From an uncultured Bacteroidia bacterium (GTDB lineage: Bacteria; Bacteroidota; Bacteroidia; Bacteroidales; UBA932), in assembly GCA_902788175.1 (NCBI GenBank), contig CADAJF010000011.1:1-61526 (forward strand): 61,526 bases of DNA, in the 5' to 3' direction. The notes below the pieces were generated by a model. The model saw only the letters and a program-made list of their open reading frames with translations. It was not told where the DNA came from and did no database searches. A program made the translations under genes and the position numbers. The first letter of the stretch is position 1. The number at the start of each line of letters is the position of its first letter. This document shows, piece after piece, positions 15,637 through 61,526 of the stretch.

Positions 15637-15660
15637 GTCTTGGTTTGTCTAATAACTCCA

Positions 15661-15692: not shown

Positions 15693-15751
15693 ACTATTCA
15701 TGGCTACAAGTGAAAAATCTTCGATAACTTTTTATCATTTCGTTAAAAATA

Positions 15752-15782
15752 TTTGCATAGTTTAATATTATTTGTAATTTTG
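15752..15782 (+). promoter_or_regulatory. promoter of the epimerase-SusCD PUL
   Basis: TTTG (15752-15755), a 19-nt spacer and TAATTTTG (15775-15782) match the consensus. The transcript would begin near 15789, about 25 nt before the epimerase ATG. Confidence 0.8.
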
Positions 15783-15813
15783 TAACGTTGACTAAAACCA
15801 TAAAACATAAATA

Positions 15814-17010: not shown

Positions 17011-17013
17011 CGT

Positions 17014-20191: not shown

Positions 20192-20204
20192 ATGCGGATG
20201 CCTT

Positions 20205-21863: not shown

Positions 21864-21868
21864 TCATT

Positions 21869-26027: not shown

Positions 26028-26049
26028 TCACTTTTTAACCTGTTTATTT

Positions 26050-38727: not shown

Positions 38728-38739
38728 AGAATGGGAAAG

Positions 38740-38747
38740 CAAAGGTA
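38740..38747 (-). promoter_or_regulatory. -7 element of hydE-hydG
   Basis: On the minus strand TACCTTTG matches TAnnTTTG. No TTTG is seen at the -33 distance, so use of this promoter is uncertain. Confidence 0.5.
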
Positions 38748-42877: not shown

Positions 42878-42880
42878 CGC

Positions 42881-43855
42881 ATGAAACGGATTCTGAACTT
42901 TTTGCTTCTGGGCCTTTGCCTGTCCAGCTGCCTGGGCGGCAAATACATGGCCAATTATGCCCTCAGGCCTCCTGTGCACGGCATCGCTGACATAGAGCGC
43001 ACCCGCGCCAAAGCAGATTCCCTGCTGCCGGGCAGCACCGCCTGGTACGATGACCTTAAGGCGCAGGGCGTGATGCGGGACACCTTCATCGTAGGGCACA
43101 ATGACTATCGTGTCCATGCCGTCTATGCCCCGGCCAAGCATCCCTGCAAGGCGCAGGGCACGGCGCTCATCATCCACGGCTACGGAGACAACCACCTGGT
43201 GTTCCTCTACCTTGCGCGCATGTACCGGGACCAGCTCAATTACAATATCCTCATGCCGGACCTTCAGTACCACGGTTACTCGGAAGGGGATTCCATCCAG
43301 ATGGGCTGGCTGGACCGCATAGATGTCCTTAACTGGATCAACGTGGCTTATGGCCTGTATCCCAATGACTTCATGGTCCTGCATGGCGTCTCCATGGGCG
43401 GTGCCACGGTCATGATGACCAGCGGCGAACACCTGCCGGACTATGTCCGCTGTTTCGTGGAAGACTGCGGCTATAACTCTGTCCGTGGCCAGTTTGCCAA
43501 GGACCTGAAGGAAACCTTTCCCTTCATACCCAAGGACTTGCTCAACAGTGCCAGTATCGTGACCAAGAGAAGGCACGGCTGGTATTTCTCGGAGGCAGAC
43601 TGTTCCAAGGCGCTTGCCAAGTGTGAAAAGCCCATGCTCTTTATCCACGGAGACGCCGATGATTTTGTCCCCTTCGACAATCTCCAGAAGAATTATGACG
43701 CCAAAAAACGCGGTTACAAGGAAATGTGGGTGGCCGAAGGTGCCGTTCACGCCAATTCTTACGCCAAACATCCGGAGGAATATACCCGCCGCGTGTCCAA
43801 CTTCCTAAAAACCGTACATAACATGATAGAAGATGGCAGTATCTATGACAAATAA
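42881..43855 (+). CDS. alpha/beta hydrolase lipoprotein
   Basis: Predicted lipoprotein (lipobox LSSC, Cys17) of 324 residues. The hydrolase fold is clear: IIHGYGDNH for the oxyanion region, HGVSMGGAT with nucleophile Ser171, HGDADDFVP for the acid Asp, and AVHANSY for the catalytic His. Such proteins are esterases, lipases or acyl hydrolases. The neighbouring glycerol kinase start lies inside its final codons (11-nt overlap), so translation is probably coupled. A lipase that frees glycerol or glycerol derivatives would fit that context, but this is inference. Confidence 0.85.
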
Positions 43856-45326
43856 GTATATCCTTGCCTTGGACCAGGGAACCAGTTCCTCCCGGGCCAT
43901 AGTTTTCGACCACAGCGGCAATTGCTGTTCGGTGGCGCAGATGGAGTTTACCCAGCATTTTCCCCAGCCGGGATGGGTAGAGCACAATCCCATGGAAATC
44001 TGGTCCTCGGAGGCCGCTGTCATCGCAGAGGCCATTTCGCTGATCGGTATCGGCGGGAAGGACATCGCTGCCATCGGCATCACCAACCAGCGGGAAACCA
44101 CCATAGTCTGGGACGCAGAGACCGGCGTGCCGGTGTACAATGCCATTGTGTGGCAGGACAGGCGTACATCGGCCTACTGTGACCAGTTAAAGGCCCAGGG
44201 GCTTGTAGAACGCATTCGCGAAAAGACGGGCCTTATTGTGGACGCCTATTTCTCCGGCACCAAGATCAAGTGGATCCTGGACAATGTCCCGGGGGCGCGT
44301 GAGAAGGCGCAGCAGGGGAAACTTCGCTTCGGAACCGTGGACAGCTGGCTGGTCTGGCAGCTTACCCGCGGGGAGGTGCACGTGACGGACGTTTCCAACG
44401 CTTCCCGCACCATGGTGTTCAATATCCATACGCTGGAATGGGACCGGGAACTGCTGGAGCTGCTGGATATTCCGCTCAGCATGATGCCGGCCGTCAAGTC
44501 TTCTTCAGAGGTGTACGGCCATACCAAAACCACCATCTTTGCCCATGAGGTTCCCATCGCCGGTATGGCCGGGGACCAGCAGGCGGCTCTTTTCGGCCAG
44601 ATGTGTACGGAGCCCGGTGCCGTGAAAAATACCTATGGAACAGGCTGTTTCCTCCTGATGAATACCGGAGAGAAGCCCATCCTCTCGCGCAACAACCTCC
44701 TTACCACCATTGCCTGGAAGATAGGGGAGAAGGTGCAGTATGCCCTGGAGGGTTCCATCTTTGTGGGCGGTTCCGTGGTACAGTGGCTGCGGGATGGCCT
44801 GGGAGTCATCCGCTCCTCCTCGGAGGTGGAAGCCCTGGCGGCCTCCGTCCCGGATAACGGGGGCGTGTATTTTGTGCCGGCCCTCACCGGCATGGGTGCG
44901 CCTTATTGGGACCAGTACGCCCAGGGGCTCATCTGCGGCATTACCCGCGGCACCACGGCGGCGCACATTGCCCGTGCGGCCCTGGAGGGCATCGCTTTCC
45001 AGACCATGGACATAGTGCAGGCCATGGAAAAGGATGCCGGCGTTCCGTTAGCAGAGCTTAAAGTGGACGGCGGCGCCTCCCGCAACAACCTCCTGATGCA
45101 GTTCCAGGCCGATGTCCTGGGTACTTCCGTTGTCCGTCCCGTAGTGACGGAAACCACCGCCCTGGGCGCCTGCTACCTGGCCGGCCTTGCCGTGGGCTAC
45201 TGGTCTTCGCTGGACCAGATCAAAGCCCAATGGCAGGCCGAACGCTGCTTTACCCCCTCCGGCCAGGACGTCACCTCCGCCAAAAACGGCTGGGCAGACG
45301 CCATCCGTAGAACCATTAAGAGTTAG
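43845..45326 (+). CDS. glpK: glycerol kinase
   Basis: Cytoplasmic FGGY kinase that converts glycerol to glycerol 3-phosphate; 493 residues. The N-terminus reads [20 protein letters not shown], the phosphate-binding region. [35 protein letters not shown] and [12 protein letters not shown] are GlpK signatures, and [19 protein letters not shown] is the second FGGY signature. ATG 43845 is preferred over the in-frame ATG at 43833. It overlaps the hydrolase gene by 11 nt. The facilitator gene glpF follows after an inserted inverted-repeat element. Confidence 0.97.
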
Positions 45327-45329
45327 ACA

Positions 45330-45440
45330 ATGCTGGATATTGTTTCCTGAACCGTCGCTGCGCGACCCCTCCCACTCCGTGGGCCCCTCCCTCTTATGCG
45401 GCCGAGGGTGGCCACAGGTTCAGGAAACAATATCCAGCAT
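45330..45440. repeat. 111-bp element with perfect 24-bp inverted ends (MITE-like) between glpK and glpF
   Basis: ATGCTGGATATTGTTTCCTG and four further bases (45330-45353) are perfectly inverted at 45417-45440. The 63-nt interior has three mini-hairpins: GTCGC-tgc-GCGAC (45354-45366), CCCAC-tcc-GTGGG (45371-45383) and GGCC/GGCC (45400-45413). The trinucleotide ACA flanks both ends (45327-45329 and 45441-45443), which could be a short target duplication. No protein is encoded. It could equally act as an RNA hairpin that controls glpF expression. Confidence 0.85.
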
Positions 45441-45456
45441 ACAAAAGTATTAAACG

Positions 45457-46197
45457 ATGAATCCAGTTTATTTGTTTGAGTTTCTGGGCACTTTGGTGCT
45501 GGTGCTTTTTGGTGACGGCGTCTGTGCCGCCTGTTCTTTGAACAAGTCCAAGGCCAAAGGGGCTGGCTGGGTGGTCATTGCCCTTGCGTGGGGCTTGGCG
45601 GTGATGATGGGCGTCCTTGTGGCAGGTCCAGTTTCCGGTGCTCACTTAAACCCTGCGGTAACGCTGGGGCTGGCGGCTGCCGGCAAGTTTGCCTGGAATC
45701 TGGTGGCCGGGTACATGCTGGCCCAGATGCTGGGCGGTTTTGCGGGAGCCGTGCTGGTGTGGATTTTCTATAAAGACCACTACAAAGCTACCGCCGATGA
45801 ACCGGATACCATGCTGGGCACCTTCTGCACCATGCCAGCCATCTGGAATCCCTGGCGCAATTTCCTCAGTGAGCTGATCGCTACCTGCGTGCTGGTGTTC
45901 GTGATCCTGGCTATCGGCACCCAGGGGAATGCTTTCATGGTAGGCCCTGTCAGTGCACAGACGGGTGCTATCGGCGCCTGGCCGGTCACCTGCCTTATCA
46001 TGGCCCTGGGTATGTCCCTTGGCGGCACCACCGGCTACGCCATGAATCCGGCCCGTGACCTGTCGCCACGCCTGGCCCACGCTCTCCTTCCCATCCAGGG
46101 AAAACGCGACAGCGGCTGGAACTACAGCTGGGTGCCCGTCGCCGGCCCCATGCTGGGCGCCTGCCTTGCCGCGGGACTTTTCCTGCTGGTGTTTTAA
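45457..46197 (+). CDS. glpF: glycerol uptake facilitator (MIP/aquaglyceroporin)
   Basis: Inner-membrane channel for glycerol, 246 residues. The two half-helix motifs are GAHLNPAVT (Asn65) and GYAMNPARD (Asn197); the Asp after the second NPAR is typical of glycerol facilitators rather than water channels. Six hydrophobic helices are evident and the length is normal. It is 130 nt after glpK, with the inverted-repeat element between them. Its stop overlaps the convergent GDPD-fusion gene by 4 nt. Confidence 0.95.
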   Translation: MNPVYLFEFLGTLVLVLFGDGVCAACSLNKSKAKGAGWVVIALAWGLAVMMGVLVAGPVSGAHLNPAVTLGLAAAGKFAWNLVAGYMLAQMLGGFAGAVLVWIFYKDHYKATADEPDTMLGTFCTMPAIWNPWRNFLSELIATCVLVFVILAIGTQGNAFMVGPVSAQTGAIGAWPVTCLIMALGMSLGGTTGYAMNPARDLSPRLAHALLPIQGKRDSGWNYSWVPVAGPMLGACLAAGLFLLVF

Positions 46198-48461
46198 AAG
46201 CTATATTTGCGGACTACTTTTATAAGGCGGTCGGGGTAATTGGAGATGATGGCATCGACTCCGCAGGAAACCATGCGGGCGATGTCATTTTCTTCATCCA
46301 CCGTCCAGGGAACTACCTTGATGCCCAGAGCGTGGCAGTAAGCTACGTTCTCCCGGGTGACCTTGCTGAAGTGGGGAGACCACCAGCGCGGACGGAAGCT
46401 GAGGGAAGCCAGAATCTGGGAAATCTCCTCTTCATCCTCCGTGAGGAAGGACAGTTCCACCTCCGGATAATGCTGATGGATATACTCGAGGGAACGGATG
46501 TCAAAGCTCTGTACCACCAGACGGTCTCCCAGGTTCTTTGAAAGCAGTAGCGGAATGCAGGTGTCGCAGAATTCCTGGTAAGTGGGCCAAAGCGTTCCTT
46601 CTCCCTTGCCTGTGCGAGATTTGATCTCGATATTGTAGCGGAAAGGGGAGAGGTGGTTTTCCCGGGCGTAATGCTCTGTGAAATCGATAAGGTCCGAAGC
46701 CAGGGGCACATGTTCTGCTACCTTCTTCTGTTCCGGCCAGCGGTCCACGAAGCGAAGCCCCACGTCATATTTGACCAAGCTGTCATACGGCATGGTGTAC
46801 AAGTATTCCTTGGGCTCTTCCTTTAGGACCAGAGAGCTGTCCGGGCGCATGGCATTGCGGGAATGGAAGTAATTGTCGTGGGCTACGAGCACCTTTTTGT
46901 CGGCGCTTAGCTGAAGGTCGAATTCCAGGGTGTTGACGTGCAGGTCCATGGCCTTTTTCATGGCAGATATGGTATTCTCCGGCATCAGGCCGGCACCGCC
47001 ACGGTGCGCCTGCAGGTCAATGTAACTGTCCCTGAGGTCAAAGCTATGGCTCCAGCTTCTTCCGTCCGGGGCCGACACGCTGATGGACACCTCTGAAGCA
47101 TACTGGGAAGGGGTGGCCACAAAGAAATGGCGCTGCGCAGCGGGCCGTTTGTAGCCGGGAATCTTGGAGAAATCCCCGTTGTACACATCCAGTATCTCCT
47201 GTCCGTAGCTGGTGGAAAAGTCGGTTTCACGCTCCAGGGTCCCCATCTCGACGCCATCCTGCGTCCAGGTGCAAGTCCAGTTTTCATCGGCGCTCCAGGC
47301 ATTGGCCAGCACGCTGTTGGGATGCCGCCAGGTCCTGTCCATGCCCACAAACTGTACCTGGAAATCATCCGGATAATCCAGGTTGTGCCAGCGCCAGGAA
47401 ATATCCCCGTTGACGGAAGAGATAATCTCGTAGCCGCGGGGAGAGCCGTCCCGGCACCAGTTGGTGGCCCACCAGGCGCCGCCGATGGCAGCTGCATTGT
47501 TGTCCACCACATAGTCGTTCACGCGCACTTTGTTCATGACGTGCGTGTGGCCGGAAAGGATGTCCACAGTGTATCCTTCCAGCAGGGCGAGCATCTGGGC
47601 GGCTCCTTCAATGTCGTTGTTTTTGTCCTCGTGGACAAAGCGGATGGGGCTGTGCTGGGCCATATAGATGTGCGTGCCCTTGGGAACATACTTCAGAAGC
47701 CCGGCCACAAAGCCCAGCGTCTCTTCAGAATAGCCTTCCTTGTAGTTGTTGGAACTCTTCTCCGGGTCCTCCGTTCCATTCCCCTTGAACAGGATACTGT
47801 TAACGCCGATGACCAGGTCTTTGCCCAGCCAGAAGGCATAGTTGTAAGGGCCGAAAGCTTGCTCATATCCTGCTCCTGCGGCGATGCCTTCCAGGTTCTG
47901 GATAAAATCATGGTTGCCGATAACTGCATAAAAAGGGATGCCGGTAGTAGCGATGGCCTTCTTGTAAGGCTCGAAGACCCAGTGCCTGTTCCAGGCGATG
48001 TCTCCCAGGGCTATGCCCACGGTCTGGCGCTGCTCCCCATAGGCTTTGGCCATTCCGCGAAGGTCTCCCAGCGGGCGGCCCAAAAAGCGCTTCAGGTGCT
48101 TCTGGTTCTGCATCTGAGGGTCGGAAACGGAAAAGAGGGTATAGTCATCACTTTCTGACAGCCTGTCCAGCTGGAAGTCAAAGGATTTTGTCCCCTTGAC
48201 GGGCAAGTAGAACTGCGGAGCGCCGGTGGAGTAATCGGCCACAAAACCGGAGGGGGTAATCACAAACACAAAACGGGCGTCCTTGTGCGTGTTCAGGGAG
48301 AAGGAACCGTCGGCTCCGGTGGAGGTGAACCGGTATCCGTCCGAGACCGTTACACCCGCCAGGGGTTTCCCTTCCGCGGAAACGCTTCCGCGTACTTTTC
48401 TGGCCTGTGCCGGAAGGCCGATAAGACAGGCAGCAATGGCAGCGAGGAGTATCTTTTTCAT
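46194..48461 (-). CDS. calcineurin-like phosphoesterase fused to a glycerophosphodiester phosphodiesterase
   Basis: Exported 755-residue protein. After a signal peptide (MKKILLAAIAACLIGLPAQA) come an N-terminal beta domain (about 22-100), a calcineurin-like phosphoesterase (about 105-335), its beta C-terminal domain (about 340-475), and a GDPD TIM barrel (about 480-755). The phosphoesterase shows SVSDPQ, GDIAWN, GNHDF near 182-186 and SGHTHVM. The GDPD part shows QAHRGGAGLMPENT (from residue 485), EFDLQLSADKKVLVAHD and a late VVPWTVDEENDIARM. GDPDs split glycerophosphodiesters into glycerol 3-phosphate and an alcohol. Adjacent glpF and glpK could use the products after dephosphorylation. The gene follows the SGNH gene by 9 nt. 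Confidence 0.92.
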   Translation of the reverse strand: MKKILLAAIAACLIGLPAQARKVRGSVSAEGKPLAGVTVSDGYRFTSTGADGSFSLNTHKDARFVFVITPSGFVADYSTGAPQFYLPVKGTKSFDFQLDRLSESDDYTLFSVSDPQMQNQKHLKRFLGRPLGDLRGMAKAYGEQRQTVGIALGDIAWNRHWVFEPYKKAIATTGIPFYAVIGNHDFIQNLEGIAAGAGYEQAFGPYNYAFWLGKDLVIGVNSILFKGNGTEDPEKSSNNYKEGYSEETLGFVAGLLKYVPKGTHIYMAQHSPIRFVHEDKNNDIEGAAQMLALLEGYTVDILSGHTHVMNKVRVNDYVVDNNAAAIGGAWWATNWCRDGSPRGYEIISSVNGDISWRWHNLDYPDDFQVQFVGMDRTWRHPNSVLANAWSADENWTCTWTQDGVEMGTLERETDFSTSYGQEILDVYNGDFSKIPGYKRPAAQRHFFVATPSQYASEVSISVSAPDGRSWSHSFDLRDSYIDLQAHRGGAGLMPENTISAMKKAMDLHVNTLEFDLQLSADKKVLVAHDNYFHSRNAMRPDSSLVLKEEPKEYLYTMPYDSLVKYDVGLRFVDRWPEQKKVAEHVPLASDLIDFTEHYARENHLSPFRYNIEIKSRTGKGEGTLWPTYQEFCDTCIPLLLSKNLGDRLVVQSFDIRSLEYIHQHYPEVELSFLTEDEEEISQILASLSFRPRWWSPHFSKVTRENVAYCHALGIKVVPWTVDEENDIARMVSCGVDAIISNYPDRLIKVVRKYSF

Positions 48462-48470
48462 AAAACAGTA

Positions 48471-49547
48471 TTATTGTATTCCGTACTTGAAGAGGATGGC
48501 CATGACGGCTTTCTCGATGGAGTGGGCCCAAAGGCCGTAACCGTGGTCTGAGGGGTGGATGCCGTCCACGGAGGTTTCATGGTCCGGGGCTGTGGCATCC
48601 GGGAAGACATAATAGACATCGGGATACCGGGCGCAGGCAATGGACATGAGGCTGTCTACCAGATGGATACGGGATTCCTCCTTCTTGGCGGAGGCTTGGT
48701 TGAAATTCCTGTTCTCCCGGTAAATGGTTCTCTGGAAGATCAAGGGTTTGCCGGGATGTGCGCTGCTGAGCTTTTCGATAAAAGGGAAAAGCCGCTCAAG
48801 AATCTGCTCCTCCGTAGGATTGGAGAAGGAGTCGAAGATAAAGCCGTCCACTGGGGCATCCACTAAAGCATCGGCAAAATAGGGCTGCATTTTGCAGTTG
48901 CCGCTGCAGCCCAGGCTCAGGAGCTGGATGCCGGTGCTGCGGGAGAACTGGGCGGGGTAGGTCATGCCGCTTCTGGAGGTGCTGATACCATGGGTGAAAC
49001 TGGAGCCGAAGATGCCTATCCGGTGGCGGAAAGGATTGGGGAGTGCCTGGATGGCGGAGCCCTTCCGGACGCCAATTTGAACGGAGTACTCTTCGCTGAG
49101 GATAGGAAAGTACACGAGGCATTCTTTCATTTCATCGTTCATGGAGGCGGCAAGGGTAACTTCGGCTGTTTGCTTGTTCTGGGCTGCGGCACCGGCCCAG
49201 AGCCACCGGCCCTCCTGGCGGATATACAGATCGTAGCCGTAAGCGCTGACTCCCATGGTGTTGACGGGTGTTTCCTTTTCCCCAAATACCGTTTTTACCC
49301 GGATCTCCGGGCTGTTGGTGCAGAACGCGACCGCTATTCCGGAGGATTCGCGCACCTGGCGGTTTTCTGATTTGGTGAAGCCTTTGTATTTCACCGTGTC
49401 CACCCTGTGGTAAGGGTTGGGGGTATCCGGGAAGAGTTTTCCCGTAAGGGTGAGGGAAGATGCTTCCGTGTAAACATACTCTTGGGCATGAAGGCAGAGT
49501 GAACTGGCAAGAGCCAAAAATAGAAAGAAAAATACCCTTTTTGACAT
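48471..49547 (-). CDS. SGNH/GDSL hydrolase with N-terminal GxDLY domain
   Basis: Exported hydrolase of 358 residues (signal ends SLCLHAQ). The N-terminal beta domain contains YGYDLYI, the GxDLY motif, and precedes an SGNH domain. Catalytic blocks are IGIFGSSFTHG, with the Ser of GSS as nucleophile, and DGIHPSDHGY with the Asp-His pair. Such proteins are esterases or deacylases on glycans or lipids. It is the first gene of a leftward unit with the phosphoesterase-GDPD fusion and may remove acyl or acetyl groups from the same substrate. Exact activity unknown. Confidence 0.85.
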   Translation of the reverse strand: MSKRVFFFLFLALASSLCLHAQEYVYTEASSLTLTGKLFPDTPNPYHRVDTVKYKGFTKSENRQVRESSGIAVAFCTNSPEIRVKTVFGEKETPVNTMGVSAYGYDLYIRQEGRWLWAGAAAQNKQTAEVTLAASMNDEMKECLVYFPILSEEYSVQIGVRKGSAIQALPNPFRHRIGIFGSSFTHGISTSRSGMTYPAQFSRSTGIQLLSLGCSGNCKMQPYFADALVDAPVDGFIFDSFSNPTEEQILERLFPFIEKLSSAHPGKPLIFQRTIYRENRNFNQASAKKEESRIHLVDSLMSIACARYPDVYYVFPDATAPDHETSVDGIHPSDHGYGLWAHSIEKAVMAILFKYGIQ

Positions 49548-49566
49548 AATTAATGTTCTTATTGAA

Positions 49567-49574
49567 CAAAGTTA
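49567..49574 (-). promoter_or_regulatory. -7 element of the SGNH-GDPD fusion unit
   Basis: On the minus strand TAACTTTG matches the -7 consensus 20 nt before ATG 49547; no TTTG is apparent at -33 in the AT-rich stretch upstream. Confidence 0.5.
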
Positions 49575-49638
49575 GTATTTTTTATTTATTTTTACGTAAA
49601 TAATGCTTATTTTTAACACCGGGAAAAAAACCACTGCT

Positions 49639-51600
49639 ATGAAACTTAACTTATATCGCATTATTTGCTGGCTCTCCGTCTTGATCACCGCAGCTTTGAT
49701 CGTGGGTTCCTGTGGGCAGAAGGAGAATAATCCCGAAGAAGGTGGCCCATCTTTGGAGGGCGTCCAGTTCGCAGTTCCCGATAAGATGGAAATAGAATAC
49801 GGTGCTTCTGGCATTTCCTTCCGCGTCCAGTTCTCCAAATCTCCCTCGGCGGGGGACTTGCTTGTTCTTGGCAGTTTTTCGCCCTGTCCTATAAAGAATA
49901 TTTCCGCCACCTCCTTTGATGTGGACATTTCAGGCCTCTGGGATCAATCCTTCGGCAACGGAGAATATACGGTGAACATCCGCCGCGGCCAGCAGTCCAG
50001 GAAGATGGGACAGATGCAGGTGGTGGTGAAAGCCAAGGAGGAAGAGGGCTTGAAACCCGCCGCCGGCAGTACGGTATATGGCAAAGTGATCTGCGAAGGG
50101 GAAGGCGTGCCGAATGCAGTGGTTTCGGACGGCGTGAAGGTGGTCAAGACGGACAAGGACGGCGTTTACCAGCTGGCCTCGGCCAAATACCACAAATATG
50201 TGTTCGTCAGCGTTCCCTCCGGCTATGAGCCTCTGCGCAGCGGCATCCTTCCGGTCATCCACAGCCAGCTTAGCCAGTCTTCCAGCGTGCCCGAAAGGGT
50301 AGATTTCCAGCTCAAGAAGGTATCCGGACAGGATAATCACACCATGCTGCTGCTGGGAGACATCCACCTGGCCAACCGGACCAACGACCGCAAGCAGTTC
50401 AAGTCTTTTGTAGATGATGTCAACGCCTATACTGCATCTGTGTCGGGGCCGGTCTATGGACTCACCTTGGGAGACATGACCTGGGACCTGTACTGGGAAA
50501 CCAACAATTACGGCTACAAGGATTACCTGGCCGATGCACAGGCCATCACCGGTCTCACGGTGTACCAGACTATCGGCAACCATGACCACAGCATGTATCA
50601 GATAGGGGATTACAACACCGTGGAGGAATACAAGAAGATAGTGGGGCCCACATACTATTCCTTCAATCTGGGCCAGGTTCACTATGTGGTGCTGGACAAT
50701 GTGGAATGCACCAACAGCGAGCCCGCCAAGGATGACAACGGCAAGGCCTGCTATGTCCGCGCCTACAAAGACCACCTGGTGGACCAGCAGTTGGACTGGC
50801 TCCAGAAAGACCTCTCTTTTGTGCCCGTTTCCACGCCGCTTGTAATTGCCATGCACATTCCCATGTACAAGCCCGGCGGTTCTGTCCGGATGGACGGCGC
50901 TGCCAAGCTTGCTTCCCTGGTAAGCCAATACCCTCAGGTTCATGTGTTTACGGCCCATACGCATACCATTTACAACGTGGATAAATCTGCGGAGAATCAC
51001 ATCTTCGAACACAATGCCGGCTCTGTCTGCGGCACCTGGTGGTGGACCAACCAGGAAACCCCGGGCGTGCATATAGGCCAGGACGGTTCTCCCGGCGGAT
51101 ATACCCTTTTAAAAGTGAACGGCACAGACTTCCAGTGGCAGTACAAGGCTACCGGTAGTTCCGTGGACAAGCAGTTCCGTACCTATGACCGCAACTCCAT
51201 CTTCCTATCGCCGGGAAAATACATTCCAAGCGCTACCAATGAGAGTTATAAGGCAGATTTCAAGCCCGGCCTTTGGGCATCGCCGGATGCATCCAATGAG
51301 GTTTATATCAATGTCTGGAACTGGGACCCTTCCTGGAAACTGGAAGTGAGCGAGAACGGAACGGCCCTTTTGCCCTCCCAGGTAACGGTACCGGACCCCC
51401 TCCACCTGATTGCATATACGGCCAAGCGCATCAACAAGAACACCAAGGCCACTTTTGCTACAACGGACAATTCCCATACCTTCAAGGTGAAGGCCTCGTC
51501 GGCCAATTCCACCCTGGAAATCAAAGTGACGGACCGTTTTGGAAACGTTTACACGGAGTCCATGGCCCGTCCCAAAGCCTTCAATACCGACACCTATTAA
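49639..51600 (+). CDS. calcineurin-like phosphoesterase lipoprotein with N- and C-terminal beta domains
   Basis: Lipoprotein (lipobox VGSC, then GQKENNPEE, an acidic stretch like surface-export signals) of 653 residues. An Ig-like domain and a SpaA-like beta domain with VYGKVICEGEGVPNAVVSDG lead into the phosphoesterase. Metal motifs are LLGDIHLAN (Asp241, His243), LTLGDMTWD, GNHDHS (His315), MHIPMY and FTAHTHTIY. A C-terminal beta domain ends the protein. It resembles the phosphoesterase half of the fusion at 46194 but lacks a GDPD domain. ATG 49639 gives the signal peptide. It is 17 nt upstream of SusC, so this PUL appears to start with a phosphoesterase. Confidence 0.88.
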   Translation: MKLNLYRIICWLSVLITAALIVGSCGQKENNPEEGGPSLEGVQFAVPDKMEIEYGASGISFRVQFSKSPSAGDLLVLGSFSPCPIKNISATSFDVDISGLWDQSFGNGEYTVNIRRGQQSRKMGQMQVVVKAKEEEGLKPAAGSTVYGKVICEGEGVPNAVVSDGVKVVKTDKDGVYQLASAKYHKYVFVSVPSGYEPLRSGILPVIHSQLSQSSSVPERVDFQLKKVSGQDNHTMLLLGDIHLANRTNDRKQFKSFVDDVNAYTASVSGPVYGLTLGDMTWDLYWETNNYGYKDYLADAQAITGLTVYQTIGNHDHSMYQIGDYNTVEEYKKIVGPTYYSFNLGQVHYVVLDNVECTNSEPAKDDNGKACYVRAYKDHLVDQQLDWLQKDLSFVPVSTPLVIAMHIPMYKPGGSVRMDGAAKLASLVSQYPQVHVFTAHTHTIYNVDKSAENHIFEHNAGSVCGTWWWTNQETPGVHIGQDGSPGGYTLLKVNGTDFQWQYKATGSSVDKQFRTYDRNSIFLSPGKYIPSATNESYKADFKPGLWASPDASNEVYINVWNWDPSWKLEVSENGTALLPSQVTVPDPLHLIAYTAKRINKNTKATFATTDNSHTFKVKASSANSTLEIKVTDRFGNVYTESMARPKAFNTDTY

Positions 51601-51617
51601 ACAATCAACGATAGCCT

Positions 51618-54600: not shown

Positions 54601-55004
54601 ATCCTTACGTTTCCTTCCTGCAGCGCGATTTCATTGACCGCGTATGGTCAGAGGAGAACCCCGACACCTACTTCCCCCGTCCGCGCGCATACTCTTCCAC
54701 AGGCGGTGAGCTTTCCAAAGTGAACAGCCGATACCTGCAGAACATCCGTTACCTGCGTTTCAAGAACCTGACGGTGGGGTACACGCTTCCTTCCAAGCTT
54801 ACCGGCAAGATCGGCCTTGACAAGGTGAGGGTCTATTTCTCCGGTGAGAACCTGGCTTACTGGTCTCCGCTCAAGAAATACACCAAGTACCTGGATCCCG
54901 AAAGCGCCTATACCCGTGACGGGAACGGAAATTCTGCCGCCCAGGACCATATGAGCTATCCTTGGCAGAAGACCTATATGTTTGGCATTGACATTTCATT
55001 CTAA
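51618..55004 (+). CDS. SusC/RagA TonB-dependent outer-membrane transporter
   Basis: Complete outer-membrane importer of 1,128 residues. A signal peptide ends at LGAQ. The carboxypeptidase-regulatory-like domain (about 25-110) precedes VVVGYGVQKKVNLTGAV at the plug junction. LNIRGITSINAADPLVLIDG and ISVIKDASAAAIYGARAAYG are SusC-family plug motifs. The barrel ends with an aromatic final residue (MFGIDISF). It lies 17 nt after the phosphoesterase and 17 nt before SusD. Together with SusD it should import an oligomer over about 1 kDa; the substrate is unknown, though the neighbours suggest a phosphodiester-containing one. Confidence 0.95.
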   Translation: MRQIKRIAVSLVLALGALWSLGAQNRVITGVVQEADGAPVVGAVVMVPGTNNAEVTGLDGAFSLRVTGEQVTLEVSCLGYVTARVTVPASQSRVSVVLQEDNMMLEETVVVGYGVQKKVNLTGAVTAVDTKELTDRTSHNLTNMLQGAVPGLNISTSSGNPGSAGSLNIRGITSINAADPLVLIDGTEGDLSRVNAADVENISVIKDASAAAIYGARAAYGVILVTTKTGTDKGGNAKVRYSGRWGWEEPTVSTDFETRGYWSVYTVDKFWATDGGKNYTNYTAHDMAELLARVNDVTENPARPWVVEEVRNGRKQWIYYANTDWYHELYNDRHPVTQQSVSVTGGNKDVKYYLSGAYDLQSGIIKVNPDVFQKFNLRAKIDARINKYARISNNTSFYSSTYNYPGGSSVQDSFAYASRHALASFPLKNPDGSWLYGTPLIGYNVANGRHLVFGEGKARNQQSRSDFSNTTELKISPVKQFTLTANYTYRLYQNRNQYRSVNFEFRRYPDAPYEYYTTGAGEDALTENTATYQRHTANVFGTYEDTFGGHHFTATAGMNMEHWASKSVGATGKNLLSETLNDLDLVGPDATGAVIMEVSGGQNEYAIMGFFGRLNYDYKERYLLELSGRYDGTSRFQKGHQWGFFPSASVGWRLSEEPFFQPARSHVDNLKLRVSYGNLGNQVVRGSGGGQNYYAYLRKISINDFAGYTFGESTTMSKYATLGAPVDANLTWETAEQWNAGLDFAALKNRLTFTGEIYRRNTLNMLTAGPDLPAVYGAASPQTNAADLKTTGFELSLGWRDQFKLFGQPFGYGIRATLSDFRSYITRYNNPTKSLSMAYYEGMRIGEIWGYEVDGLFASDEEARKYTAEVLDATTLVTGRMTGGFLAGDLRFVDQDNDGHYQIDANGKYVLDANGNRILLPEDQWRVNTLSNGSNTVDDPGDRKILGNALPSLQYGITLTADYMGFDVQAFFQGTGDHYWYPAGMNYMFWGPYSYPYVSFLQRDFIDRVWSEENPDTYFPRPRAYSSTGGELSKVNSRYLQNIRYLRFKNLTVGYTLPSKLTGKIGLDKVRVYFSGENLAYWSPLKKYTKYLDPESAYTRDGNGNSAAQDHMSYPWQKTYMFGIDISF

Positions 55005-55021
55005 AGAAGGAGGAAAAGAAA

Positions 55022-56851
55022 ATGAAAAGACAGTTTATCGCCCTTGCGGCATCTATCCTTTGCCTCGCTTCCTGCAACAGTTTCCTGGAGCGGACCCCCA
55101 AATCTACCATGGCTCCGGAGAACTACTTCCGCGACGAGACGGACCTTCAGCTGTTCTCCAACTCTTTCTATAACAACCTGCTGGACAAGACTCCTTACAA
55201 CGAGCAGAGTGACCAGCTGGTCTATCTGAACCTGAGTGCCGTGATGCGCGGCGGAAACAACCGCACGGTGCCCAATTCCGGCGGCGGCTGGGGCAACGGC
55301 TCCGGTGCCTGGGGAGACCTCAGGAAGATGAACACCCTGCTGGAGTACATAGACCGCTGCGAAGATGAGGCGGCCGTCCTGCAATATACGGCGCTTACCC
55401 GTTTCTTCCGCGCCTATCTGTATTTCACTATGGTTCAGCGTTTCGGCGACGTGCCCTGGATCGACGAGCAGTTGCAAAGCGATTCAGAGAATCTTTACCG
55501 TCCCCGCGACAGCAGGGAAGTAGTGATGGGCCACATGCTGGAAGACATTGACTATGCCATCCAGCACCTGCCTTCCGCTGTAAGCACCTACCGGGTGAAC
55601 CGCTGGACGGCCCTGGCCCTCAAAGCCCGCTTCTGCCTGTTCGAAGGTACTTTCCGCAAGTACCATTCCCCGGACCAGTATCCCAAGATGTATGTAGAGC
55701 CCCTGCCCACAGGCGGCCGCACGTCCCAGGACTACCTGAAGCTGGCGGCCGATGCTGCCCGGGAACTCATCGACAACGGTCCCTACAAGCTGGCAAAGGT
55801 GTCCGATTACAGGCTTCTGTTTGCCAATGTGGATGCTTCCAAGGATGAATTTATCCTTGCCATCAAGAACGACCAGAGTCTCCAGGTTTGCCACAACGCT
55901 ACGGCCTTTGCCATGATGCCTTCCCAGAACAAACCCGGCTTTACGCGTAAATTCATTGCCGGCGTCCTGATGAACGACGGCTCCCGCTTCACGGATCAGC
56001 CCGGCTGGGAGACGATGGCCTTTGTTCAGGAAATGCAAAGCCGTGACCCCCGCCTGAAAGCCATCACCGTGGGTGACGGCCATGTGTGGCTGGGAGACGA
56101 GACTGTGTCGGCACCGGACCTGGTGTGTGCAACCACCGGTTACCAGGTTTCCAAATATGTGATGGACAAGACCCTGCCGGAATGGGGCCGCGTGGACAAG
56201 AGCTATAACGATATGCCCGTGTTCCGCTATGCAGAAGTTCTTCTGAATTACGCAGAGGCCAAAGCCGAACTGGGCACCCTGACGCAGGATGATCTGGATC
56301 TCACCGTGAATGCCCTGCGCTCTCGCGTCGGGATGACGGGCCTTCTGAGTCTGGATGAAGCCAACGCCAGCCCGGATCCGTATCTCGCATCCGCCGAAAC
56401 AGGTTATCCCAACGTGAGCGGGGCCAACCAGGGTGTCATCCTGGAAATCCGTCGTGAACGTGCCATCGAACTGGTGATGGAGGGATTCCGTCTCTCTGAC
56501 CTTATCCGCTGGAGAAGCGGAAAATGCCTGGAGCAACCCATCTGGGGCGCTTATTTCCCGGGAATCGGCAAGTATGACCTGACCGGTGACGGCTTGCCGG
56601 ATATCCATATCTGGACCGGCGTAGATCCCAAGGATAAGGACATGGCCGATTTCGAGCTGGGCACTTCCACCGGCATCATCCTCTCTGACGGTGTCTCCGG
56701 TTATATTGACAGGCACCAGAATATCGAGCGTAACTTTAACGAAGACCGCGACTACTATTATCCCATCCCTACCAAGGAACGTCAGCTCTACCATGACAAA
56801 GGGGTAGATCTGAAACAGAACCCCGGCTGGGTAGATGGTCTTAGCTACTAA
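55022..56851 (+). CDS. SusD/RagB family nutrient-binding outer-membrane lipoprotein
   Basis: Surface lipoprotein (lipobox LASC, followed by NSFLERTPKST) of 609 residues, partner of the SusC just upstream. LTRFFRAYLYFTMVQRFGDV is the conserved first TPR-like region, and EIRRERAIELVMEGFRLSDL, followed by IRWRSGK, is the typical C-terminal signature. It should bind the substrate and close the transporter. The next gene starts 20 nt downstream. Confidence 0.94.
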   Translation: MKRQFIALAASILCLASCNSFLERTPKSTMAPENYFRDETDLQLFSNSFYNNLLDKTPYNEQSDQLVYLNLSAVMRGGNNRTVPNSGGGWGNGSGAWGDLRKMNTLLEYIDRCEDEAAVLQYTALTRFFRAYLYFTMVQRFGDVPWIDEQLQSDSENLYRPRDSREVVMGHMLEDIDYAIQHLPSAVSTYRVNRWTALALKARFCLFEGTFRKYHSPDQYPKMYVEPLPTGGRTSQDYLKLAADAARELIDNGPYKLAKVSDYRLLFANVDASKDEFILAIKNDQSLQVCHNATAFAMMPSQNKPGFTRKFIAGVLMNDGSRFTDQPGWETMAFVQEMQSRDPRLKAITVGDGHVWLGDETVSAPDLVCATTGYQVSKYVMDKTLPEWGRVDKSYNDMPVFRYAEVLLNYAEAKAELGTLTQDDLDLTVNALRSRVGMTGLLSLDEANASPDPYLASAETGYPNVSGANQGVILEIRRERAIELVMEGFRLSDLIRWRSGKCLEQPIWGAYFPGIGKYDLTGDGLPDIHIWTGVDPKDKDMADFELGTSTGIILSDGVSGYIDRHQNIERNFNEDRDYYYPIPTKERQLYHDKGVDLKQNPGWVDGLSY

Positions 56852-56871
56852 TTTCTAATTCCATGCAAGTT

Positions 56872-59800
56872 ATGAAACTCAGTAACATATTGAAGACACT
56901 CGCCGTCGCAGCGGCCGGCGCCCTCCTCTGGAGCTGCCAGCAGAAAGAGCTGGAAACCGAGGCACGGGCCGTTGCCTCCAGCGAGACCTATGTGACTTTT
57001 GCTTCTACCGGTGCCCAGGCCCAGGTTCTGAGCGTTTACGCCGATGGCGTCTGGAACGTGGATGTGGATGCCGACTGGATTTCCGTAACCCCCATGACAG
57101 GAAACGGTCATGGGGAGATCACCATCTCTGTGAGGGACAATTCCACCGGGGGCACCATCGACCGTCCGCGCGACGGAAAGATTACCATCCAGGGCAAGTA
57201 TGCCTCCCGCCAGAGTATAGTGTCGGTCCACCAGGACGGTGATACCTACTACGGCGTGACCACTTACCAACTCTCCCAGATTGCTTCCCTGGAGGACGGG
57301 GCAGTGGGTAAGGTTCACGGCGCCCAGGTCATTGCGCTCACCGGGAGCGGTTTTGTGCTGCAGGACGAGAGCGGCTGTCTCTACGCCACCGGAGAAAACG
57401 TGAAGCTGGGCGATGTCCTGTCCTTTAACGGCTCCAAGACCACGCTCTTTGGCGGCCCTGCCTTTGAAACGGATGAGGTGACCGTTCTTTCAAACAGCGA
57501 AGTGAAATACGCCGATGCACCTGACATGACTTCCCAGATAGGGGAGTACAAGGGCGGCGTGGTCTATGCTCTTCTGAAGGGCTCTTTGGTGAACGGTGTG
57601 CTCAAGGTGGGAAAAGCCAACGTGCAGTTGCTCGACCCGGTGGAATCCTTGGAATTGGGAGCTGTAGACCTTCATAAAGTATCTGTGACCGGCTTTGTAG
57701 TGGGTATTTCTGGTGCGACCGGTTATATGGTGGCAACCAAGGTGGAGGACGAAGGGGCCGATGAGACCCTGGTGCCTTATCCGCTCCGCTGGGCGATGGG
57801 TAAGGACCTGAACTACAGCAACGCTACCTGGAATAATGACAGCCCCCGTGCGGAACCTATCCAGGGTATCGGCTATATTGAATATGTGCCTTACGATCTG
57901 GAAGGAACCAACAGCGGCGGCAACTTCAAACTGGACGTTCAAGCCAATAACCTCCGTGTTACCGGTCCTTATGTGAATGACTACTGGCTCTTCTACGGCA
58001 ATGGCGCCATCCCGGCCAATACGGAGGTGCAGATTGCCTTCGAGATGCGTTCATCGGCCTGGGGCCAGAAATTCTGGGTCCTGGAGTATCTGGATGGCGA
58101 AGAGTGGCTCACGGCTCCCAATGTGAAATATTCGGACGAGCCAGGCGTGGAGGTCCCCTATCATATCGCCACCAACCCCGACGGTGCCACCAACTCCCAG
58201 CTTATGGAGGTGATCAAGTTCCGCAAGAACAATGAACACCTGCAGATCCGCATGCGCTGCTCCGTGAACTGGCGTGGCGGCGGACAGCCCATGGCCAATC
58301 CCCGTACAACGGCCTCCAGCCGTCTTACCGTTACCAATGTGGATGATGACACCTATAAACCCAACATCCAGATAATCAAGGAAGGTAACGGTGTGGAAAA
58401 AGATCCCGTGTACGCGAATATCGAAACTTCCACCGATCTCCTTACCTTCAATGGTACACCCGGAGATCCCAAGGAACTGACCATCACTTCTGACTATGAC
58501 TTCACCGTGTCTACATCTGCCGACTGGCTTTCCCTGGACCCGACCGAAGGTGTGGCCGGCGAGCCGCTGGTGGTAAAGGTTACCTGCGAAGAAAGCCAGC
58601 TTGCAGAACTTCGGCAGGGAGTAATCCGCATCGTTTCCGAAGATTCCGAGAAAGTGGTGAACGTGGTGCAGAGCGCCGCCGGCCAGATACTGGATCCGTT
58701 CATCTCCATCAGCGGCGGCAATGCCATTACTGTGGGCAGTGACGCCGGCAAGACCATCGTGAAGGTGCAGACCAACACGGAGTTCGACTTTGTCTCCAAC
58801 GACTCCTGGATCAGCATTGCCCCGCTCCAGACCAAGTCTTTGGTAGACTGGTTCGAGTATGAGCTGACCTACGAGGAAAACACCGCCGAACAAACTCCCC
58901 GCAGCGGTTCCGTCCGCTTCTTCAACACGGAGAAGAAACTGGAAACCATTCTCACGGTAACCCAGGAAGGCGCCCCCGCCTCCGACGTCTATTTCCAGGA
59001 CGACTTTGAATGGCTGGCTCCCTGGTCAGATTCTGCTCCCGATGATGTCTCCGACAACAAGGTGGGCACTGCCCAGAACATGTTCACTACGGCTGCGCTG
59101 GCTCCTGCCCTGGAGGAATTCCAGAGGCGCGGCTATGGTTATGTCTGGGGCTGGAAGGATCAGGACTGGTCTGACGGTCTTCCCGACAACGGTAACAAGC
59201 AGACGCTCTATCTGATGAAGAACTACCTAAAATTCGGCAAGACTTCCTACAACTCCGGAATTATCCTTCCTCCGCTTGCCAAGATGGCCGGAACGGACAA
59301 TGTGGACCTCACCTTTGACTGGGCCTGGTGCATGACAGGTGCTTCTAAGCCGGATGTGATGACCCTCACTGTAACCGTGACCGGCGGAGGCTATCTGGCC
59401 GATACCAAGACGGAGACCAGCGGCGAGATTACCTCTTCCCAACCTACGGAAGGCGATCTTACCGTCCTTGAATGGCAGCACGCGAAGGTGACCATCGTGG
59501 GCGCAACCCCTGCCACCCGCATCACCATCCGTCCCACCAACGCGGATCCCGGCATCAGCTCTTCCCGCAAGCAGAACCGCTGGTATCTGGACAACATCAA
59601 GGTAGAGAAGTCCGATTACCAGGAAAGCAAGCGTGAATTCTATGCCGATGACTTCGAGTGGCTGGCCCCCTGGTCCGAGTCTGCCCCTGATGATGTCACC
59701 GACAACAAGGTGGGCACTGCCCAGAACATGTTCACTACGGCTGCCCTGGCTCCTGCCCTGGAGGAATTCCAGAAGCGCGGCTATGGCTATGTCTGGGGCT

Positions 59801-60261
59801 GGAAGGATCAGGACTGGTCTGACGGTCTTCCCGACAACGGCAACAAGCAGACGCTCTATCTGATGAAGAACTACCTCAAATTCGGCAAGACTTCCTACAA
59901 CTCCGGAATCATCCTTCCCAAGATCCCCGGCATCACCGCTGCCACCGACGTGGAACTCAGCTTTGACTGGTGCTGGTGCATGACGGGGGCTTCCAAGCCG
60001 GATATGATGACCCTCACTGTCACGGTGGAAGGCGGCGGTACCATCCAGGCTACGGGCACCACCGTAAGCGGAGAAATCACCTCCTCGCAGCCTACGGAAG
60101 GAGATCTGACCGTTCTAGAATGGCAGCACGCCTCCGTCAAGATTGTAGGTGCTACGGCCGATACCCGCATCACTATCCGTCCCACCAACGCGGATCCCAG
60201 TATCACCTCTTCCCGCAAGCAGAACAGATGGTACCTGGATAATATCAAGGTGACGGAGTAA
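56872..60261 (+). CDS. large BACON-domain lipoprotein with a duplicated C-terminal module
   Basis: Surface lipoprotein of 1,129 residues (lipobox LLWSC, then QQKELETEA). A BACON-like domain with DADWISVTPMTGNG lies near 35-115. An OB-fold-like segment follows (TTYQLSQIASLEDGAVG, then GSGFVLQDESGCLYATGEN). The middle carries a carbohydrate-binding-like beta domain and two more BACON-like domains with SADWLSLDPTEG and NDSWISIAPLQT. The C-terminus holds two almost identical modules of about 205 residues spaced by 216 residues (about 708-917 and 924-1129). It ends the PUL operon before a strong terminator. ATG 56863 is an alternative start. It probably binds the substrate; no catalytic motif is seen. 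Confidence 0.8.
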   Translation: MKLSNILKTLAVAAAGALLWSCQQKELETEARAVASSETYVTFASTGAQAQVLSVYADGVWNVDVDADWISVTPMTGNGHGEITISVRDNSTGGTIDRPRDGKITIQGKYASRQSIVSVHQDGDTYYGVTTYQLSQIASLEDGAVGKVHGAQVIALTGSGFVLQDESGCLYATGENVKLGDVLSFNGSKTTLFGGPAFETDEVTVLSNSEVKYADAPDMTSQIGEYKGGVVYALLKGSLVNGVLKVGKANVQLLDPVESLELGAVDLHKVSVTGFVVGISGATGYMVATKVEDEGADETLVPYPLRWAMGKDLNYSNATWNNDSPRAEPIQGIGYIEYVPYDLEGTNSGGNFKLDVQANNLRVTGPYVNDYWLFYGNGAIPANTEVQIAFEMRSSAWGQKFWVLEYLDGEEWLTAPNVKYSDEPGVEVPYHIATNPDGATNSQLMEVIKFRKNNEHLQIRMRCSVNWRGGGQPMANPRTTASSRLTVTNVDDDTYKPNIQIIKEGNGVEKDPVYANIETSTDLLTFNGTPGDPKELTITSDYDFTVSTSADWLSLDPTEGVAGEPLVVKVTCEESQLAELRQGVIRIVSEDSEKVVNVVQSAAGQILDPFISISGGNAITVGSDAGKTIVKVQTNTEFDFVSNDSWISIAPLQTKSLVDWFEYELTYEENTAEQTPRSGSVRFFNTEKKLETILTVTQEGAPASDVYFQDDFEWLAPWSDSAPDDVSDNKVGTAQNMFTTAALAPALEEFQRRGYGYVWGWKDQDWSDGLPDNGNKQTLYLMKNYLKFGKTSYNSGIILPPLAKMAGTDNVDLTFDWAWCMTGASKPDVMTLTVTVTGGGYLADTKTETSGEITSSQPTEGDLTVLEWQHAKVTIVGATPATRITIRPTNADPGISSSRKQNRWYLDNIKVEKSDYQESKREFYADDFEWLAPWSESAPDDVTDNKVGTAQNMFTTAALAPALEEFQKRGYGYVWGWKDQDWSDGLPDNGNKQTLYLMKNYLKFGKTSYNSGIILPKIPGITAATDVELSFDWCWCMTGASKPDMMTLTVTVEGGGTIQATGTTVSGEITSSQPTEGDLTVLEWQHASVKIVGATADTRITIRPTNADPSITSSRKQNRWYLDNIKVTE
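58993..60258 (+). repeat. 648-bp in-frame tandem duplication inside the BACON lipoprotein gene
   Basis: FEWLAPWS begins at 59005 in copy 1 and at 59653 in copy 2, a period of 648 bp or 216 residues. Long stretches of nucleotide sequence are identical, for example around 59060-59260 and 59710-59910. The copies diverge mainly near their middles (LPPLAKMAGTDNVDLTF against LPKIPGITAATDVELSF). Confidence 0.92.
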
Positions 60262-60279
60262 CAATCCCTATTCTAAAGC

Positions 60280-60314
60280 AAAAATCCTCTGTGTGAAATA
60301 CGCAGAGGATTTTT
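60280..60314. terminator. bidirectional terminator between the second PUL and glpT
   Basis: A 12-bp perfect stem (AAAAATCCTCTG at 60280-60291, CAGAGGATTTTT at 60303-60314) with an 11-nt loop has A- and T-tracts on the two sides. It can serve both convergent units. Confidence 0.9.
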
Positions 60315-60331
60315 ACTTATGTATGAGCTTT

Positions 60332-61526
60332 TCAGGCGCTGCGCCTTTCTTCCTTGAGCGTGAGCCCCATGAAGAGGATAGACAGGATGCAGGCGGCTAT
60401 CAGGAGCAGGAAAGTCCAGCTCCAGCCAAACTGCTGCGCCACCCAGCCGATAACCGTATTGGCCAGGATAAAGGTTCCCAGGAAATAGCCGAAGAAACCG
60501 GTAAGGCCGGCAGCGGTACCCGCAGCGTTCTTGGGAGCAAGGTCAAGTGCCTGTACGCCGATGAGCATCACAGGGCCGTAGATAAAGAAGCCTATGCCAA
60601 TCAGGCTGATAATGACTACGGTGAGGTAGTCGATATAGGCCCAGTAAAGGATGATGAAAACCAGCACCAGGGCCATAAAGAGGATGGTGGGCAGGGCGCG
60701 TCTTCCGTGGAAGAGTTTGTCTGAAAGCCAGCCGCAAAGGAGGGTTCCGGGGATGGCTGCGAATTCATAGGCAAAATAGGCCCAACCGGCACTCTTGAGG
60801 TCAATTCCCTTTTCCGTGAGGATGGTAGGGGCCCAGTCCAGGCAGCCGTATCGAACCATATACACAAAGGCGTTGGCCAGGGCAATGTACCACAGGAATT
60901 TGTTGTTGAGCACATATTGGAAGAAAATTTCCTTGGCAGTGAGGGTTTGCTCGTGTTTTTCCGAGTAGTTTTTGGGGTAGTCGTTGCGCCAGGCTTCTAC
61001 GGACTGCAAGCCACAGGACTGCGGCGTATCACGCAGTAACATCCAGGCCAGCAGGGCAATAAACAGCGCCACGGCAGCCGGGAAAGCAAAAGTGCCGATC
61101 AAAAAGTACAGCTCCGTATGCGACCCATAGAACCAGCTGCCGAACCAGACAGCACCGTAAGTGGCCATCGGCCCCACCAGCGCACCGCCTACGTTGTGCG
61201 CGCAGTTCCAGATGCTCATCATGGTGCCCCGTTCGCCGGGGGAGAACCAGTGCGTCATGACACGCCCGCAAGGAGGCCAGCCCATGCCGTTGAACCAGCC
61301 AACCAGGAAGTTCAGCACGCCCATTGCCAGGATGGCCAGGGCCTTGTGCTCCGCTCCTATAAACTGGATGGGCACGATCATAAAGCACATGGAAATGGCC
61401 GTAAGGACCAGGCCTATGGGCAGGAAGAGCCGCGCATTGGAGCGGTCCGAGACGCTTCCCATCAGGAATTTGGACAGGGCGTAAGCCGCCGCATTCAGAC
61501 CCAGGACAAAGCCCAGTTCCGTTTTG
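60332..61526 (-). CDS. glpT: glycerol-3-phosphate transporter GlpT (MFS, OPA family), N-terminus outside window
   Basis: Inner-membrane antiporter that takes up glycerol 3-phosphate in exchange for phosphate. The frame runs from the right edge (398 codons visible) to the stop at 60332-60334. The diagnostic stretch WFNGMGWPPCGRVMTHWFSP is followed by ERGTMMSIWNCAHNVGGALV, both typical of GlpT and its organophosphate:phosphate antiporter relatives. YGCLDWAPTILTEKG matches GlpT more closely than UhpT. The ATG at 61462 is internal, because the frame continues upstream with KFLMGSVSDRSN as part of the first helix pair. It is convergent with the second PUL and fits its glycerol-phosphate theme. Confidence 0.87.
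   Translation of the reverse strand, partial: KTELGFVLGLNAAAYALSKFLMGSVSDRSNARLFLPIGLVLTAISMCFMIVPIQFIGAEHKALAILAMGVLNFLVGWFNGMGWPPCGRVMTHWFSPGERGTMMSIWNCAHNVGGALVGPMATYGAVWFGSWFYGSHTELYFLIGTFAFPAAVALFIALLAWMLLRDTPQSCGLQSVEAWRNDYPKNYSEKHEQTLTAKEIFFQYVLNNKFLWYIALANAFVYMVRYGCLDWAPTILTEKGIDLKSAGWAYFAYEFAAIPGTLLCGWLSDKLFHGRRALPTILFMALVLVFIILYWAYIDYLTVVIISLIGIGFFIYGPVMLIGVQALDLAPKNAAGTAAGLTGFFGYFLGTFILANTVIGWVAQQFGWSWTFLLLIAACILSILFMGLTLKEERRSA

Follow-up and report, generated by a model that had tools for sequence, protein, structure and literature searches.

The nearest published system to the locus described here is the PusCD system of Flavobacterium, in which SusCD pairs stand beside phosphodiesterases proposed to act on lipid head groups and nucleic acids. 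In PMC8115612, it is set apart by its authors from loci bearing carbohydrate-active enzymes (CAZymes) and provides expression evidence for SusCD pairs that serve organic phosphorus. We analyzed a SusCD locus at positions 43833-61525 of a 61,526-nucleotide contig of an uncultured Bacteroidia bacterium from gut or rumen (Bacteroidales, UBA932; CADAJF010000011.1 in assembly GCA_902788175.1), in which a SusC/SusD pair, 2 phosphoesterases, and glycerol genes lie together. The locus is likely to mediate SusCD-based uptake and degradation of substrates containing sn-glycerol-3-phosphate (G3P), with the glycerol backbone passing to catabolism. The whole contig (C11) is referred to as the window; it ends within glpT, and the assembly of 2.09 Mb in 58 contigs is estimated to be 84.5% complete.

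The PUSI locus of Flavobacterium johnsoniae resembles the window locus in having SusCD together with a phosphoesterase of pf00149 and one more predicted phosphodiesterase, but its partner enzyme belongs to pf16670 and not to the glycerophosphodiesterase family (GDPD, pf03009), and it is Pi-induced (inorganic phosphate, Pi). Loci of the window type have in addition GDPD, GlpT, GlpK, and GlpF, together with either GlpABC or a GlpD-like gene, and it is by GDPD and the glycerol catabolic genes that they depart from PusCD. The main text of PMC8115612 contains none of the terms glycerol, GlpK, GDPD, GlpT, and GlpQ. The GlpQ/PhoD pair of Bacillus subtilis (PMC7086022) offers a likeness in an exo-acting GDPD that releases sn-glycerol-3-phosphate together with a second, endo-acting phosphodiesterase. 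It differs in acting on the organism's own wall, in a Gram-positive bacterium and without SusCD, and the window's metallophosphoesterase lipoprotein (MPE) is a MetallophosN/MetallophosC protein.

With canonical polysaccharide utilization loci, the window shares SusC, an adjacent SusD, surface lipoproteins, and hydrolases in neighboring operons, but phosphoesterases take the place of glycosidases and lyases. No glycoside hydrolase or polysaccharide lyase family was found by Pfam in the 10 proteins of 41585-60258, nor by NCBIfam for the cut GlpT. In the glp regulon of Escherichia coli, GlpQ-GlpT, GlpABC, and GlpFK form one pathway, and the same set recurs here; E. coli differs in that it is not known to have an outer-membrane importer of the SusCD type dedicated to this pathway, or a phosphoesterase at the surface. 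In a literature search of titles and abstract openings, mostly without subscription journals and preprints, none of the matches listed, the PusCD paper aside, reported GlpT, GDPD, or teichoic acid in connection with a SusCD locus. It is almost a reflex to assign a polysaccharide to any SusCD importer; here, glycerol phosphate is what the enzymes, the transporter of the inner membrane, and the catabolic dehydrogenase point to.

Genes were called as open frames supported by Pfam and NCBIfam models with curated cut-offs. A sequence-only reading of this DNA had named glpK, glpF, a phosphoesterase-GDPD fusion, an SGNH esterase, a phosphoesterase lipoprotein, SusC, SusD, a BACON lipoprotein, and GlpT in one stretch, and all 9 genes were confirmed at correct coordinates. 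The features of the locus are as follows.

43833-45326, plus strand: glpK, glycerol kinase (TIGR01311, 741 bits against a cut-off of 590)
45457-46197, plus strand: glpF-type MIP channel (PF00230, 3.4e-45; TIGR00861, 188 bits against a cut-off of 171, a model that does not separate glycerol channels from other MIP channels)
46194-48461, minus strand: metallophosphoesterase-GDPD fusion of 755 aa (PF16371, PF00149, PF16370, and PF03009 at 1.2e-30)
48471-49547, minus strand: SGNH esterase (GxDLY and Lipase_GDSL_3 by Pfam; signal peptide by eye)
49603-51600, plus strand: MPE, MetallophosN/Metallophos/MetallophosC lipoprotein (PF16371, PF00149, PF16370)
51618-55004, plus strand: SusC-type TonB-dependent transporter (TIGR04056, 865 bits against a cut-off of 368)
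55022-56851, plus strand: SusD-type lipoprotein (PF07980, PF14322)
56863-60261, plus strand: BACON-domain lipoprotein of 1132 aa, presumed surface binding protein (PF13004 in 3 stretches)
60280-60314, no strand: terminator-like hairpin where the BACON and glpT genes converge (stem of 16 pairs; a pattern match only, the scan giving 29 sites of this kind over the stretch vs 18.3, SD 5.3, in shuffles)
60332-61525, minus strand: glpT, cut by the contig end (best model TIGR00712, 494 bits, model positions 62-440)

The phosphoesterase lipoprotein heads the SusC/SusD operon, as the sequence-only reading had it, with gaps of 11-17 bp from MPE through SusC and SusD to BACON. The true start of MPE is perhaps the second ATG, at 49639. 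No dedicated regulator gene was found at 41585-61525, the region past the contig end being outside view. A promoter search between the divergent SGNH and MPE genes gave a single match resembling the -33/-7 motif, on the SGNH side, and was given little weight.

Both phosphoesterases have intact active sites. The fusion combines MetallophosN, Metallophos, MetallophosC, and GDPD in one protein, and MPE carries the same 3 phosphoesterase domains and no GDPD. Among 18 distinct fusions, the phosphoesterase residues D114, D154, N183, H184, H270, H305, and H307 and the GDPD residues H486, R487, E513, D515, and H528 were invariant. The latter contain the His-Arg, Glu-x-Asp, and His pattern of the GDPD family and were paired, by motif and without a printed alignment, with the catalytic His-43, Arg-44, Glu-70, Asp-72, and His-85 given for B. 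subtilis GlpQ in PMC7086022. Among solved structures, the GDPD half matched 3ch0 best (1.1e-58) and B. subtilis GlpQ (5t91) at 5.3e-17. The nearest solved structure to the SGNH esterase was the uncharacterized 4lhs (1.1e-64). In MPE, residues D253, H255, D291, N326, H327, D328, H418, H452, and H454 were invariant in an alignment of the window with 48 of the 80 related loci described below. Its AlphaFold2 model (pLDDT 90.5) has a core resembling purple acid phosphatases and Rv0805, which is a phosphodiesterase; a PDB sequence search with MPE alone gave no match at 0.01, and a search with an MPE profile returned purple acid phosphatases. Only PF16370, PF16371, and PF00149 were detected in MPE at E-values up to 0.001, with no PhoD family domain.

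With a crude lipobox pattern, matches came from 43 of 77 MPE frames, 46 of 72 BACON frames, 3 of 22 fusion-type frames (the window's among the 3), and 0 of 7 SGNH frames; the window MPE, too, begins like a lipoprotein, with a lipobox-like Cys. The BACON protein starts SC-QQKELE, its Cys following WS, and looks lipoprotein-like by eye. The fusion is predicted to be periplasmic from an ordinary-looking signal peptide, which is not certain, the crude lipobox pattern being present at Cys12 too. Assignments of these proteins to the surface or the periplasm are predictions from such signals.

The glycerol genes of the organism extend beyond the window. The window GlpT is about 61 residues short and scored 494 bits with TIGR00712 (cut-off 632.55), vs 391 with TIGR00881 (PgtP) and 214 with UhpT, and was thus best described as GlpT among the OPA models. 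It is the single GlpT match at 1e-40 in its genome and stands beside the window SusC, in a genome with 20 SusC stretches (about 18 genes). A cut glpC, glpB, and glpA lie at the extreme end of contig C25 (locus L138) of the same assembly, which fits C25 following C11. In the close relatives L146 and L147, the next unit past glpT is glpC-glpB-glpA. These 2 regions adjoin L032 and L038, which share the gene order of the window, and place glpA-glpB-glpC-glpT beside BACON. The adjacency of glpK and glpF was found in the window, L032, L038, L053, L124, and L125.

We searched for the same association in relatives, the sequence-only reading having made its case depend on the SusCD operon being linked to glp genes there. 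Genome contigs were scanned with MPE alone; from the 160 related stretches obtained, we retained the best 80 as loci (numbered with L) and identified their neighbors by BLAST, using proteins of the window and of relatives and leaving uncounted matches below 60 bits and genes outside the fetched stretch. SusC was orthologous and near MPE in 64 of the 80 loci (at least 45% identity, within 4 kb), a second SusC type was present in 6, and a weaker match in 1. A GlpT/OPA transporter lay within 10.5 kb in 36 of the 80 loci, in 21 of those within 400 bp. The other neighbors were GDPD (20 loci), a G3P dehydrogenase gene (11), glpK or glpF (4), and a LacI-type gene ahead of GlpT-MPE-SusCD (8, of which L060 and L061 are near-identical). 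At least 1 glp gene or GDPD was identified in 47 of the 80 loci, and in 30 of the 46 loci with at least 8 kb on both flanks.

In a second sample of 61 genomes (the organism's own and 60 relatives; MPE at 1e-60, GlpT at 1e-40), MPE was found in 18 genomes at 27 places, and 6 of the 27 were within 15 kb of GlpT, where copy number and genome size (rounded) would predict 0.70 (Poisson p, 9e-5; about 8e-4 with one link fewer). Two even samples were sparser: across the order, MPE (1e-80) occurred in 4 of 246 other genomes, with GlpT adjacent in 1, on another contig in 1, and without a match at 1e-40 in 2; across the phylum, MPE (1e-50) occurred in 5 of 391 others, with GlpT within 2 kb in 2 and without a match at 1e-30 in 3. 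On an MPE tree built by a quick method, GlpT linkage changed 18 times over 86 tips, a count made with contig-cut loci scored as unlinked and without a shuffled control, and in which gain is indistinguishable from loss. Among relatives, SusCD-MPE and glp genes stand together more often than the chance estimate, and instances of the linkage come from close relatives, from other Bacteroidales, and from another order.

Some of these loci run unbroken. In L073, glpA-glpB-glpC-glpT-MPE-susC-susD-BACON run on one strand with frames that abut or overlap; GlpA, GlpB, and GlpC exceed their NCBIfam cut-offs, and L076 is similar. L083 (Muribaculum) has glpABC-OPA transporter-GDPD-MPE-susCD-BACON, with GlpA over its cut-off and a transporter that scores best with the PgtP subfamily model, under all cut-offs. 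The order glpD-like-glpT-HAD-GDPD-MPE-susCD-BACON was found in L100 and L102 (both Maribellus) and in L110 (Mariniphaga anaerophila), and glpD-like-glpT-porin-unknown-MPE-susCD-BACON followed by glpF and glpK in L099 (Proteiniphilum sp. X52). L131, from another order, carries glpD-like-glpK-glpF-GDPD-susC-susD-MPE-GDPD-glpT-SGNH on one strand, its glpD-like gene cut by the edge of the fetched stretch and its GlpK over the cut-off; L132 has a dehydrogenase gene in the run and GlpK and GlpF close by. The GlpT proteins of L099, L110, L131, and L132 scored 708-745 bits, over the cut-off. The SusD type is PF12771 in L131, L132, and L139, vs PF07980 in the window and L073. Named strains bearing a cluster of this kind are Mariniphaga anaerophila DSM 26910, Maribellus luteus XSD2, and Proteiniphilum sp. 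X52. Beside these, L142 (G612, 6361-18000) encodes GlpD-like-GlpT-SusC-SusD-unknown-NAGPA phosphodiester glycosidase with no adjacent MPE, and may represent a third type of SusCD locus for glycerol phosphate.

A number of results weigh against this picture. No glp gene or GDPD was in reach in 33 of the 80 MPE loci, nor in 16 of the 46 with long flanks, and the relatives sampled are not independent, which makes the Poisson value rough. The congeners L124-L126 have neither SusCD nor MPE close to their GlpABC-GDPD-GlpT genes, and no MPE was found in their genomes at 1e-60. Both the core without glp genes nearby and glp genes without the core thus occur, and the link is frequent, not fixed. Among 16 MPE-bearing genomes tested, 4 (G681, G682, G684, and G688) had no GlpA at 1e-60. 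Judged by their titles, the loci closest to the window come from metagenome assemblies. GlpT of the window's kind falls under its curated cut-off even when uncut (L112, 92% identical to the window's, 554 bits; L041, 562 bits), as does that of L073 (449 bits) and L139, GlpT being the best model in each case, and the GlpD-like proteins of L099 and L132 are under their cut-offs. Finally, the MPE core resembles both phosphomonoesterases and phosphodiesterases, leaving the fold undecided between the two activities.

The use of glycerol phosphate put forward by the sequence-only reading was supported, with G3P dehydrogenase genes now added as members of many clusters. We infer the following order of steps, sites, and modes of action. 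The surface lipoproteins BACON and MPE would bind and cut the substrate outside the cell, with MPE probably cleaving phosphodiesters internally, and SusC/SusD would bring the fragments in. In the periplasm, the SGNH esterase may strip ester groups, and the fusion may free glycerol-3-phosphate from the ends and dephosphorylate a part of it. GlpT would then import glycerol-3-phosphate, while GlpF and GlpK would import and phosphorylate glycerol. GlpABC, beside GlpT in relatives, would oxidize glycerol-3-phosphate to dihydroxyacetone phosphate; both GlpT and GlpABC handle sn-glycerol-3-phosphate.

As to the substrate, the foremost candidate, at somewhat short of an even chance, is poly(glycerol-3-phosphate) wall teichoic acid or another phosphoglycerol polymer; phospholipid-derived glycerophosphodiesters would be a tentative second. 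According to PMC7086022, GlpQ needs an unmodified C2 hydroxyl, attacks wall teichoic acid at its free end to release glycerol phosphate, and cannot degrade unsubstituted lipoteichoic acid (sn-glycerol-1-phosphate) unless it is precleaved, with endo-acting PhoD implicated alongside it. An esterase clearing D-alanine, an endo-acting phosphoesterase, and an exo-acting GDPD would make a consistent set. The stereochemistry of GlpQ would favor wall teichoic acid, or diesters derived from phospholipids, over lipoteichoic acid in its intact form. Of the substrates proposed by the sequence-only reading, teichoic acid and phospholipid head groups were kept, and intact lipoteichoic acid became less likely, although the pathway could still reach it if MPE is endo-acting or if dephosphorylation yields glycerol. 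A link to peptidoglycan was considered through a gene for a NamZ-type exo-N-acetylmuramidase beside the locus (40307-41482, minus strand), and was not used, with only one distant match (26%, L058) in the fetched loci.

One version of glycerol-phosphate use, which overlaps with the general reading in its chances and which we hold possible if rather unlikely, starts from membrane phospholipid deacylated by the SGNH and alpha/beta hydrolases, with SusCD importing the small glycerophosphodiesters. In its favor are the SGNH esterase within the locus, the SGNH gene after GlpT in L131, and the alpha/beta hydrolase gene upstream of glpK, and GlpQ-type enzymes act on such diesters (PMC7086022). For diesters this small, however, a SusCD importer and a surface protein of 1132 aa should be superfluous, and alpha/beta hydrolase and Omp85 genes are also found near the glp genes of L124-L126, where SusCD is missing.

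Scavenging of phosphate in the manner of PusCD, in which phosphate would be taken from phosphodiesters under limitation with glycerol use secondary, appears improbable. The F. johnsoniae PUSI system, with SusCD, pf00149, and pf16670 proteins, is induced by Pi depletion (PMC8115612), and in L133 and L134 a SusC-SusD-MPE-GDPD set was found but no glp gene in 19 kb, a DUF5689 gene separating SusD from MPE in L133. But glycerol kinase, a glycerol channel, and glycerol-3-phosphate dehydrogenase serve carbon and not phosphate, and dehydrogenase genes lie within the runs of L073, L076, L083, L131, and L132, with GlpK and GlpF in L131 and near L132. The LacI-type gene before GlpT-MPE-SusCD in 8 loci, 2 of them near-identical, also speaks against it. 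The G3P dehydrogenase genes in many clusters make carbon use likelier than phosphate scavenging alone. That the SusCD genes serve some unrelated phosphorylated glycan and sit next to a glycerol regulon by chance, as the 33 loci without glp neighbors and the GlpABC-GDPD-GlpT sets without SusCD in L124-L126 might suggest, is very improbable, since the linkage stands above the chance estimate and recurs across orders with differing gene orders, GlpT subtypes, and SusCD types.

Returning to glycerol-phosphate use, the recurrence of similar clusters in distant relatives suggests that glycerol-phosphate material from the walls or membranes of bacteria serves as food, a diet that has received little study. 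If teichoic acid is the substrate, the locus would show how Bacteroidota feed on Gram-positive walls; if phospholipid diesters are, it would show how gut and rumen Bacteroidota use lipid head groups. We offer as a speculative generalization that a class of Bacteroidota SusCD loci, assembled repeatedly with at least 2 distantly related SusCD types, may consume the poly(sn-glycerol-3-phosphate) wall teichoic acid of other bacteria as a carbon and phosphate source, with Gram-positive walls as a nutrient niche of the rumen and gut.

Another SusCD locus was identified at 9894-27996 of the window, comprising a GDSL/SASA esterase, a Sugar_tr transporter, a GlcNAc 2-epimerase, SusC, SusD, DUF5018, NAGPA, GHL10, and BACON, which we take to be sialic-acid-like from the epimerase and esterase. 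Its NAGPA phosphodiester glycosidase gene suggests a phosphodiester substrate here too. The SusC of this locus is split over 2 frames, 17014-19230 and onward to 20191, as a broken gene or an assembly error. Downstream of BACON in L060 (19356-20585), a protein of 410 aa has a metallo-beta-lactamase-like HxHxDH motif by eye and no Pfam match; its kin occur in L059, L061, L080, and L122, and in L059-L061 and L122 the gene lies ahead of a second phosphoesterase gene. Finally, 2 radical SAM genes, of which one encodes a BATS domain, lie at 36384-38742 of the window (minus strand) near EamA and formate/nitrite transporter genes, and our guess is that the pair functions in hydrogenase maturation.

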